From the NCBI GenBank assembly GCA_902775105.1, contig CACYLC010000004.1, positions 1 through 51,651 of the forward strand: a DNA stretch of 51,651 nt, given 5' to 3'. Shown here piece by piece: positions 10,227 to 22,489 of the stretch. The translations under genes and the position numbers were made by a program. Position 1 is the first letter of the stretch, and each line of letters starts with the position of its first letter. The DNA is from Oscillospiraceae bacterium. GTDB lineage: Bacteria > Bacillota > Clostridia > Oscillospirales > Oscillospiraceae. The notes under the pieces were generated by a model, which did no database searches, was not told the origin of the DNA, and saw nothing but the letters and a program-made list of their open reading frames with translations.

Positions 10227-10253
10227 GAAAGCAGACAAAATACTACAGAAACA

Positions 10254-10346
10254 GCTTCCTACGCCGGCATTACCCGGATCAGGTTCGAGGTGCCGAGAGC
10301 TGCAATTTGCTCTCATCTCAGCCGGGGATGTCCCCCAGCGCCCCTG
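10254..10346 (-). ncRNA. TPP riboswitch aptamer (THI element)
   Basis: Read on the minus strand, the segment contains the THI-box landmarks in order: a GGGGCGCTGGGGGA 5' arm, GGCTGAGATGAGAG, then GAACCTGATCCGGG and TAATGCCGGCGTAGGAAG. The CUGAGA and ACCUGAUC/GUAAUGCCAGCGUAGG-type elements are the conserved thiamine pyrophosphate pocket. It sits 80 bases upstream of thiT with a terminator between them. Confidence 0.95.
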
Positions 10347-10374
10347 TGTTTGGATTCAATTACGGTCTGCCTTT

Positions 10375-14069: not shown

Positions 14070-14143
<74 letters not shown>

Positions 14144-18404: not shown

Positions 18405-18968
18405 TTATTCCCCCGGCCAGATCCCCCGGTACAATCTCCAATACTCCTCCCACGCAGGATATTCCGAGAGACATTCCAGCGTCTCCCCCACCTCCCAATA
18501 ATACCATGCGTGGGCGGCGGGGTCTTTTTGGTGGAAGCTGTCCCACAGCTTATCCCCGCATTGCAGGCAGTCCCGGTACAGCGCCCGGAGGTTGGAGAGC
18601 TTGTCTCCCATGACAATGATCTTGACCTCAAGGCGTTTCTCCCGGCGGAGACGGTCGATCGTCTCCTGTTTCCGGAGCCGCCACGTCTCCTCCGCCGGAA
18701 GCTCAGGCCGCTTGTCCTCCGTCTCGGCGGCGACGAATGATGCGATCCGATCCCCGAACCGCTCTCGCAGTTCCTCCAGCGTATGGGGCGTGTCCTCCAC
18801 CACATCGTGCAGGACAGCGGCGGCCAGCACCTCCAAATCATCCGTCATCGTGGCGGCGATAGAGGCGGCCTCCAACGGGTGGAGGATATAGGGGACTTTG
18901 CTCCCCTTGCGGCAGGCGCCGCTGTGGGCTTCGGCGGCAAAGACAATGGCCTTGTCCAGAATTGTCAT
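18405..18968 (-). CDS. HD-domain hydrolase, candidate small alarmone hydrolase
   Basis: This 187-residue protein matches the hydrolase domain of RelA/SpoT enzymes: VPYILHPLEAA (His 30), LHDVVEDT (His 54, Asp 55, Glu 58, Asp 59) and VKIIVMGDKLSNL. These are the metal and (p)ppGpp-binding residues of that family. It lacks a synthetase, TGS or ACT domain, so it would be a free-standing hydrolase of (p)ppGpp or a related nucleotide, which lowers the stringent-response signal. The substrate is inferred from sequence likeness only. It is a single-gene unit with its own upstream region. Confidence 0.8.
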   Translation of the reverse strand: MTILDKAIVFAAEAHSGACRKGSKVPYILHPLEAASIAATMTDDLEVLAAAVLHDVVEDTPHTLEELRERFGDRIASFVAAETEDKRPELPAEETWRLRKQETIDRLRREKRLEVKIIVMGDKLSNLRALYRDCLQCGDKLWDSFHQKDPAAHAWYYWEVGETLECLSEYPAWEEYWRLYRGIWPGE

Positions 18969-19006: not shown

Positions 19007-19048
19007 AACGTTGACCCCTATCCACCACTCTGGACAGGGGTCAACGTT
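19007..19048 (-). terminator. Intrinsic terminator of the structured RNA
   Basis: AACGTTGACCCCTATCC and GGACAGGGGTCAACGTT form a 17-bp stem (one G-T pair) with an 8-base loop. On the minus strand TTGTTCTGG and TTTTGTTT follow. Confidence 0.85.
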
Positions 19049-19304
19049 CTGAATTCTTGATATCTAGCATCCCTTGTTACCCTCACTTTCCTAGATTCGT
19101 GAGTCCCGAACTCTTTTCAGATACGCCTTGTTCTCATCTGCCTGCCGCAACCTTTGCACTTCCTTGTGCCTGCCCCATACGGGCTTCTTGCCGGATCTGT
19201 GAGTCCCTGCCGTTCTGAAAAGCTCACGTTGGCGGCGAACCGTACCTCGTTCACCTCGGGATTTGGGGGACTTTCCTCTTTGAAAGCTCCCTTTCTTTCT
19301 GTGC
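19007..19304 (-). ncRNA. Structured stand-alone non-coding RNA, family not certain (raiA motif is one candidate)
   Basis: About 300 bases on the minus strand have a promoter at one end and a strong terminator at the other, but no plausible protein. Read 5' to 3', GGGAGCTTTC pairs with GAAAGTCCC, and GGTGAAC pairs with GTTCGCC. An 8-bp long-range helix joins CTTTTCAG (19222-19215) and CTGAAAAG (19120-19113). TCTAG pairs with CTAGA near the 3' end. Purine-rich joints such as AAAGAGGAAAG are typical of folded RNAs. It is not tRNA, 6S, SRP or tmRNA by eye. It shares GAGGAAAGTC with RNase P, but none of the other conserved RNase P regions. Size and host fit the raiA motif of Firmicutes; this is a guess that a covariance search would settle. 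Confidence 0.65.
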
Positions 19305-19305
19305 C

Positions 19306-19337
19306 ATTATAGTAGCACATCTCCCTTCTTTTGTCAA
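19306..19337 (-). promoter_or_regulatory. Sigma-A promoter of the structured RNA
   Basis: On the minus strand TTGACA (19337-19332) is followed after 17 bases by TACTAT (19314-19309) and after 20 bases by a consensus TATAAT (19311-19306). Either could be the -10 element. It faces away from the thrH promoter at 19406-19434. Confidence 0.75.
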
Positions 19338-19405
19338 TGGCTTTTTGCAAATATTTTTAGAAAAATTTTGTGATCGGAGCTCCTTCGGGGAGGATGTTTT
19401 CTCGG

Positions 19406-21421: not shown

Positions 21422-22489
21422 ATGACAACCATCGACATTATTTCCGGTTTCCTGGGTGCGGGCAAGACCACCCTCATTAAGAAGCTGATTTCCGAATCCT
21501 TCCAGGGTCAGAAGCTGGTGCTGATTGAGAACGAATTTGGCGAGATCGGCATTGACGGCGGCTTTATGAAGGACGCCGGCATCGAGGTCACCGAGATGAA
21601 TTCCGGCTGTATCTGCTGCTCTCTGGTGGGCGACTTCGGCGTTGCCCTGAAGCAGGTGCTGGAGACCTATGCCCCCGACCGCATCATCATTGAGCCCTCC
21701 GGCGTGGGCAAGCTGTCCGACGTGGCCAAGGCTGTGGGCAGAGTGGCTCAGCAGTCCGAGCTGCAGCTGGGCAGCGCCATCACCGTGGTCAACGCCAAAA
21801 AGGCCAAGATGTATATGAAGAACTTCGGCGAATTCTTTGACGATCAGGTGCAGCACGCCGGCACCATCATTCTCAGCCGTACTGCCGACATCAAGGAGGA
21901 CAAGCTGGAGGAGGCGGTCAGCCTGCTTCGAGCCCAGAACGCCGATGCCGTGATTATCACCACCGACTGGGATCAGATCACCGGCGACCAGATCCTCTCC
22001 GCCATGGAGCGCCATTCTCTGGCGGATGAGCTGCTGGCACAGGCCAAGGCGGAACATCATCACCACGACCACGATGAGGAGGAGCACGAGCACCACCACC
22101 ATCACCACGACCACGATGAGGAGGAGCACGAGCATCATCATTACGATGAAAACGGCGTCTGCTCCTGCGGCCACCATCATCACGACCATGATGGCCACCA
22201 CCATCACCACCACGCTGACGACGTGTTCTCCTCCTGGGGTACCGAGTCTCCCCGGAAGTTTACCCCGGCAGAGATCAAGACTGCGCTGGAGGGGCTGGAC
22301 ACCGGCGCTTACGGCCAGATCCTCCGGGCCAAGGGCATTGTCCCCAACGTGGACGGCAGCTGGATCCACTTCGATTTCGTGCCGGGCGAGATTGATATCC
22401 GTTCCGGCGCTGCGGACGTGACGGGCCGTCTCTGCGTCATTGGCGCTGAGCTGAAGGAGCAGGACATTCAGGCCCTGTTCCGTCTGTAA
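21422..22489 (+). CDS. COG0523 (CobW/YciC-like) metallochaperone GTPase with His-rich insert
   Basis: This 355-residue protein has Walker A GFLGAGKTT (9-17), switch EFGEIGID, and the metal-binding CxCC motif GCICC (62-66) that defines COG0523 GTPases. These use GTP to deliver zinc or another metal to client proteins. Residues 212-264 are packed with His and Asp/Glu, including a duplicated HDHDEEEHEHHH unit, then CSC (247-249) and a second His cluster. The guanine-specificity loop is LSRTAD where NKxD is usual. A short C-terminal CobW_C-like domain follows. It heads an operon with a second GTPase and rex. The metal is unknown; zinc or nickel are the likely choices given the His tract. Confidence 0.88.
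   Translation: MTTIDIISGFLGAGKTTLIKKLISESFQGQKLVLIENEFGEIGIDGGFMKDAGIEVTEMNSGCICCSLVGDFGVALKQVLETYAPDRIIIEPSGVGKLSDVAKAVGRVAQQSELQLGSAITVVNAKKAKMYMKNFGEFFDDQVQHAGTIILSRTADIKEDKLEEAVSLLRAQNADAVIITTDWDQITGDQILSAMERHSLADELLAQAKAEHHHHDHDEEEHEHHHHHHDHDEEEHEHHHYDENGVCSCGHHHHDHDGHHHHHHADDVFSSWGTESPRKFTPAEIKTALEGLDTGAYGQILRAKGIVPNVDGSWIHFDFVPGEIDIRSGAADVTGRLCVIGAELKEQDIQALFRL
22060..22213 (+). repeat. CAC/GAC-rich coding repeat (His/Asp tract) with near-perfect tandem copy
   Basis: The block around CACGACCACGATGAGGAGGA occurs twice, about 39 bases apart (starting near 22063 and 22108), followed by further CAT/CAC runs. It encodes the metal-binding tract of the GTPase. Such tracts are prone to length change by slippage or unequal exchange. 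Confidence 0.7.

Follow-up and report, generated by a model that had tools for sequence, protein, structure and literature searches.

A probably uncatalogued stand-alone RNA family, probably of Oscillospirales, with a short reading frame joined to its terminator

The RNA gene described here lies in a stretch of 51,651 nucleotides from an Oscillospiraceae bacterium (the window, meaning the whole stretch that was analysed), and we consider it rather probable that it belongs to an unlisted family of stand-alone RNAs with a translated short frame that is controlled by the leader and coupled to the terminator, and with a product that acts in trans. On the best reading of the comparisons, each family RNA would be a tiny regulated mRNA or a dual-function RNA. 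The family is probably uncatalogued, and in the genomes sampled it is restricted to a single order of gut Clostridia, which record names suggest is probably Oscillospirales. A typical gene is predicted to have a promoter of its own and a leader of some 130-550 bases, then a strong Shine-Dalgarno (SD) site, a frame of 8-10 codons, and a terminator stem that starts inside the last codons. In the window, the predicted RNA runs on the minus strand from about 19302 to about 19000 (roughly 300 bases), and its features are listed below with the kind of evidence for each; R1 is a covariance model of the 3' module.

19309..19337, minus strand: promoter TTGACA-17-TACTAT with TG before the -10 box (extended -10); sequence scan
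19287..19300, minus strand: 5' purine tract AGAAAGAAAGGGAG just past the transcription start, no AUG here; sequence and relatives
19256..19261, minus strand: possible pseudoknot helix, 5' strand UCCCGA; one-sided changes only
19216..19228, minus strand: long-range helix, 5' strand CGUGAG-CUUUUCA; covariation
19113..19119, minus strand: long-range helix, 3' strand UGAAAAG; alignment of relatives
19104..19109, minus strand: possible pseudoknot helix, 3' strand UCGGGA; 10-sequence alignment
19098..19103, minus strand: long-range helix, 3' strand CUCACG, with GUGAG at the SD site as alternative partner; alignment
19080..19090, minus strand: SD site GAAAGUGAGGG of the short frame; 16S-tail pairing and R1 alignment
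19041..19070, minus strand: short frame ATG CTA GAT ATC AAG AAT TCA GAA CGT TGA, that is MLDIKNSER and stop; conserved in relatives
19007..19048, minus strand: intrinsic terminator hairpin of 18 bp with the stop codon within its 5' arm, then a U-rich tail; minimum free energy (MFE) fold, alignments and R1
18405..18968, minus strand: HD-domain hydrolase gene, start codon 44 bases past the stem; shared as neighbour by 8 of 10 clade copies

An earlier note, made from the letters of the window, had described this region as a noncoding RNA transcription unit with a TTGACA promoter, a densely paired body and a 17-bp terminator. The promoter is present at 19337-19309 (minus strand) with 10 of 12 consensus matches, though the call is weak by itself, because the scan for promoter-like sequences gave 1 site against 0.6 expected from shuffles; promoter-like sites stood in the same position in relatives. 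The terminator was found with 18 pairs in the MFE structure (19007-19024 with 19031-19048), and the hairpin was not among the calls of a simple terminator scan of the region. The dense pairing was borne out for the whole element (z = -5.5 against shuffles, minus strand), but it is partly the terminator, since the opposite (plus) strand scored -4.5 and the body without its ends and terminator scored about -2.6 (30 shuffles). The stand-alone nature of the unit is supported by compensatory changes in relatives and by the mostly unrelated genes that flank family members.

The earlier note had also found no useful frame inside the element. It had dismissed a 77-aa frame (19117-19350); neither this frame nor a 107-aa frame of the region matched any Pfam family. 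It had overlooked the nine-codon frame at 19070-19041, which lies on the same strand, has a good SD site, and has its stop codon inside the terminator stem. The pairing energy of GAAAGUGAGGG was -13.0 kcal/mol against what we take to be the 16S tail of these bacteria. Over the family, the 3' SD site had a median of -13.7 kcal/mol (n = 133), and nearby gene starts had a median of -9.2 kcal/mol and a tenth percentile of -14.1 (n = 391, the best of five starts being taken for each). Extended SD motifs are the subject of PMC13009471. The noncoding reading is not supported by the comparison, because a conserved short frame forms part of the 3' end. The MLDIK start resembles the start of seryl-tRNA synthetase; a leader of that gene was rejected, as 14 serS upstream regions, read by eye, lacked the module (the serS of the window genome, L052, lay outside this set).

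Comparison of family members showed how the frame is conserved. We tabulated 133 distinct copies chosen by an SD-plus-frame pattern, in which the conservation of GAAAGnGAGG and of much of MLD(I/T)K is built in by the pattern itself. Their stop codons were TGA (91), TAA (35) and TAG (6), with one cut. Codon 3 was GAT in 133/133 copies although the pattern allowed GAC, so that constraint acts at the RNA level as well. The pattern placed no constraint on codon 9, the stop codon or the terminator part of the module. For this part, 86 of the 133 copies passed filters on loop length, truncation and similarity, and 47 of these were aligned (alignment A2). An 18-pair helix starts in codon 8, spans codon 9 and the stop codon, and continues into CCCUUG; 95.9% of its cells were paired, and double changes were found at 16/18 pairs. 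Its covariation, with codon 9 and the stop codon included, was 0.543 against 0.225 in shuffled and at most 0.130 in slid alignments. The stop codon's middle base forms either G-C (26) or A-U (20), and the last base of codon 9 forms A-U (21), G-C (10) and other pairs.

Model R1 was built from A2, so its training copies were chosen by pattern, and the window was not among them; it scored the window at 85.9 bits (E 8.3e-15). By fetching 74 more stretches (76 R1 matches were listed) we obtained 63 new distinct copies, which brought the total to 196. The stop codon lay in or beside the terminator arm in 189/196 of them (5 did not, and 2 had no helix), where start codons of covariance-model matches were chosen by SD spacing; the seven weakest of the 74 fetched stretches (L285-L291), mostly unlike the family, were omitted from this count and from the promoter and 5'-end counts below. 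Frame length was 7-11 codons in 192 of the 194 distinct copies that have the helix. In this set, the third positions of the Asp and Lys codons were more variable than the first and second. The same length was still read in 53 of 54 distinct copies outside the scan pattern, with peptides such as MKLDTKISEK, MTLDTKITEK, MVLDFKSEQK, MLEPASEMK, MLEPAHEMK and MIEPKSFGK. Exceptions that break the frame were L272 and one of the L082 copies, with a shift of one base and 11 codons, and L246 and L280, where the usual stop position reads TGT and TGG, respectively. The commonest peptide form is M-L-D-I/T-K-x-x-x-K, with divergent forms of the type M-I/L-E-P. The frame and a related peptide persisted where codons changed synonymously, where whole codons were inserted and where one stop codon replaced another, off-pattern copies included; this comparative evidence for a conserved, putatively translated frame is strong.

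Upstream of the frame, the window's clade has a long-range helix. The 8-bp helix that had been proposed between 19113-19120 and 19215-19222 is real, and longer than claimed: 19222-19216 pairs with 19119-19113, and 19228-19223 with 19103-19098. In an alignment of the ten strong copies from the genus, window included (A1), it was 100% paired in 10/10 sequences, and compensatory changes were present, with both sides changed at 5/13 pairs. The whole A1 structure had a covariation of 0.241, compared with 0.147 in shuffled and no more than 0.080 in slid alignments, and a count of pair types gave no excess over shuffles (14 against 14.3). The support that these ten related sequences give to the helix is good but not overwhelming. 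A possible pseudoknot (19261-19256 with 19109-19104) was also 100% paired in the ten sequences, with variation on one side only. Segments shared in A1 were a GUGAGCUUUU-like stretch, CCGGCA...UGCGGC, UCGGG.CUC and GAAAGnGAGG, plus the short frame. The 3' strand of the long-range helix sits just upstream of the SD site in this clade. We rejected a switch of the riboswitch kind, with CUCAC masking the SD site, because the alternative hairpin with GnGAG is mismatched in several clade sequences and the long-range helix is paired in all ten.

Across the family, structure of the RNA body was weak (mean z -1.34, above 0 in 22/151 copies). A body conserved across subgroups was not found; motifs such as CACGGCGGUG (present in 18 of 158 bodies, with 20 copies aligned) were confined to subgroups. 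Doubly changed long-range pairs upstream of the SD site were found in type A, where they were tested with controls, and also in type B and the CACGGCGGUG subgroup, from a helix scan that had no controls.

In many copies the 5' end carries a second ribosome-site-like element. The window tract AGAAAGAAAGGGAG pairs moderately with the 16S tail (-9.6 kcal/mol), and the window's clade keeps the purine tract and has no AUG after it. Many relatives have at the same place an SD site and a very short frame, such as MYR, MI or MNK, each followed by a stop. Among 191 copies with a called promoter, which were not de-duplicated, 113 had an SD-like stretch and a short frame after the -10 box, against a mean of 7.8 and a maximum of 12 in mononucleotide shuffles. 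These frames had three codons in 79/113, their ATG lay at a median of 24 bases past the -10 box, and the median SD pairing energy was -13.1 kcal/mol (n = 100). A helix scan of 8 type B sequences, which had no shuffle control, showed pairing between codons of the 5' frame and the strand that precedes the SD site. A general link between the 5' frame and the SD zone was rejected: the relation came from the type B scan only, and over 139 copies the own partner was the stronger one in 70, 65, 75 and 67 for four choices of zone.

Both ends of the RNA bear on an alternative that we regard as unlikely, in which a structured RNA acts in trans, the ribosome sites are only docks that bind or stabilise it or are titrated, and the peptide is inert. 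In favour of such docking are the strong SD sites that many copies carry at each end, the 5' frames that mostly have two to four codons (100/113) and could hardly give a useful peptide, nucleotide conservation that exceeds coding need, and covariation of the long-range helix. The docking reading is at odds with the 3' frame, whose related peptide survives all the kinds of change listed above, also in copies outside the pattern.

In the reading we prefer, that of a leader-controlled and terminator-coupled short mRNA, ribosomes would load at the 3' SD site and translate some 8-10 codons. Use of this site may be set by long-range pairing of the leader and, in many copies, by the 5' start-stop frame. 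In type B, translation of the 5' frame could open the helix upstream of the SD site, since its codons pair with that strand. A ribosome that ends the short frame would occupy the foot of the terminator hairpin, which would put translation and hairpin formation in competition. The product, which may be the peptide, a ribosome-bound RNA or both, would then act in trans, and the RNA perhaps has a second, RNA-level function beside its role as a tiny mRNA. Much more tentatively, and as a rather unlikely reading, we suggest a new kind of autonomous, translation-sensing RNA gene, in which the 5' start-stop frame and the terminator-fused frame of about nine codons would let the fold, the end and the peptide output of the transcript report ribosome activity as a signal in trans, with no downstream gene.

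Neighbouring genes raise another possibility for the window's clade, namely a leader in which a ribosome on the short frame makes a weak terminator fail, so that transcription continues into the gene for the HD hydrolase. In 8/10 clade copies this gene begins 44-88 bases past the stem, and 6 of these 8 have a poor U-tract (3-5 U in 12, against 8-9 as the commonest family values); therefore a leader role specific to this clade is possible, and the RNA may also lead into the HD gene here. We consider it quite unlikely as the explanation of the element, since in two clade copies (G011 and G013) the tail is rich in U and the 192 and 507 bases examined contain no HD gene, the genes downstream of family copies have no orientation bias, and the neighbour is explicable by conserved synteny alone. 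Syntenic groups of copies do exist, and the window's group is among them. The orientation count covers 108/133 copies (for the other 25 there was no called gene or less than 900 bases of downstream sequence), and its genes are longest-frame calls with some antisense frames among them; the nearest gene was in the same orientation in 60 and opposite in 48. Recurrent neighbours in the window's genus were the HD hydrolase (8 loci) and a convergent, presumably GIY-YIG-like gene (6 loci). A convergent gene of this kind ends at the RNA terminator in type B loci L030, L031, L032, L035, L043, L044, L024 and L026, and in L031 both stop codons, read by eye, are UGA at the stem base. Outside the genus, six loci (L079, L099, L105, L129, L150 and L151) have what we take to be a PurE-like gene some 1.1 kb upstream. 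A presumably TraX-like gene follows on the same strand in five of these six, and at L121 it lies downstream on the opposite strand; this setting looks like the synteny of one clade.

The distribution of the family was determined by several searches. In 59 related genomes, searched at the DNA level, there were 10 strong copies including the window, all in the window's genus, and the SD-plus-frame pattern matched 15/59 genomes (two of them, G009 and G052, by parts of longer genes), against 0 for the reversed pattern. A stricter form of the pattern matched at least 118 stretches in genome_contigs, and the record titles listed for these matches were metagenome-assembled or uncultured Clostridia, mostly Oscillospiraceae and one Lachnospiraceae. 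In viral_contigs the pattern had no exact match that would point to a phage origin. R1 at E <= 0.01 found the module in 74/394 genomes and 38/168 genera of the order, where about 4 matches are expected by chance and the weakest few look like chance; in a sample of the phylum it matched 4/398 genomes, which were the window genome and three marginal ones. Two or more family loci were present in about 23 of the 74 positive genomes (counted by eye). The window genome has a second copy (L278, G000:C37:8862-8966, minus strand), with 5' frame MYRNEAPW and 3' frame MVEPKEAR, each ending in a stop. Loci L077, L082, L098, L107 and L121 have two RNA copies per contig, 0.46 to 5 kb apart.

The Rfam models placed the element in no known class. 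The raiA motif (ModT RNA) had been the leading guess, and it agrees with the element in size, host phylum and stand-alone transcription only. Its model (RF03072, gathering score 101.3 bits) had no match in the region at E <= 10, where four sub-threshold matches to other families reached at best 18.5 bits, and no Rfam family attained its gathering score. Nor did RF03072 match in any of the 59 related genomes, in a search whose control matched nowhere either; the same model found 22/199 genomes elsewhere in the phylum, 17 over the cut-off. The guess is thereby rejected at the level of the Rfam model, and we give it virtually no weight. The raiA/ModT RNA is transcribed in Bacillota from a stand-alone gene of at least about 200 bases that has a promoter and a terminator to itself, and the phrase "open reading frame" is absent from the main text of the paper on it (PMC11706538); our element is alike in these respects of transcription and differs in having no match to RF03072.

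Rfam 15 gave 6 matches on 18 family loci, none overlapping the element, and sub-threshold matches only on three loci searched separately. The earlier statement that the RNA could not be matched to known classes held for 6S RNA (RF00013), whose match in this genome lies elsewhere (G000:C22:22857-23049, 73.9 bits), and for tmRNA, as ARAGORN found in the window one tRNA, elsewhere, and no tmRNA. Among the papers listed by the literature searches none described the family, and there was nothing on MLDIK; supplements of structured-RNA surveys and preprints were outside its scope, so an earlier unnamed listing is possible.

The RNA family behaves most like a dual-function small RNA or an attenuator without its gene. 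SgrS/SgrT, SR1/SR1P and RNAIII/hld are dual-function small RNAs that encode peptides. They share with our family a promoter and terminator of their own (here read from sequence), a size of a few hundred bases, and one small frame, which in them is translated. In contrast to them, the frame of our family has only about 8-10 codons and is placed at the extreme 3' end, where its stop falls within the terminator stem; often there is another, very short frame near the 5' end. In the ribosome-mediated attenuators bmrCD, tnaC and cat-86, which have leader peptides, a short leader frame likewise directly precedes a hairpin that a ribosome can block. These attenuators have a regulated gene directly downstream on the same strand; membership of our family fails because its copies have no downstream gene in common (nearest genes 60 against 48 in orientation), with the HD gene of 8/10 clade copies as the nearest approach. 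The microcin C gene mccA has 7 codons, and is alike in being a gene of fewer than 10 codons followed by a terminator; our family differs in lacking shared modifying-enzyme genes alongside and in ending, in most copies, with Lys/Arg and not Asn. PMC8040213 was also consulted for the comparison with known systems.

If the frame is translated, the family would represent a conserved bacterial gene with no more than about 8-10 codons, present in 38/168 sampled genera of the order. Such a frame is too short for ordinary gene callers, and the family is absent from Rfam 15. Because stop codon and terminator are fused in 189/196 copies, a specific coupling of translation to the transcript end can be tested directly.

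Some other features were recorded. The window contains a TPP riboswitch (10238-10355, minus strand, 58.8 bits), a tRNA-Arg with anticodon CCT (14070-14143, plus strand), and a long frame with a very histidine-rich stretch (21422-22489, plus strand), which presumably resembles a metal-handling G3E-type GTPase. At L096:3960-4031 (plus strand), opposite in strand to the family RNA, there is a weak sub-threshold match to the F. prausnitzii HDV ribozyme family. A Gut-1 RNA was found at L073:2186-2262 (minus strand, 90.4 bits); a family copy lies some 0.4 kb upstream of it on the same strand.
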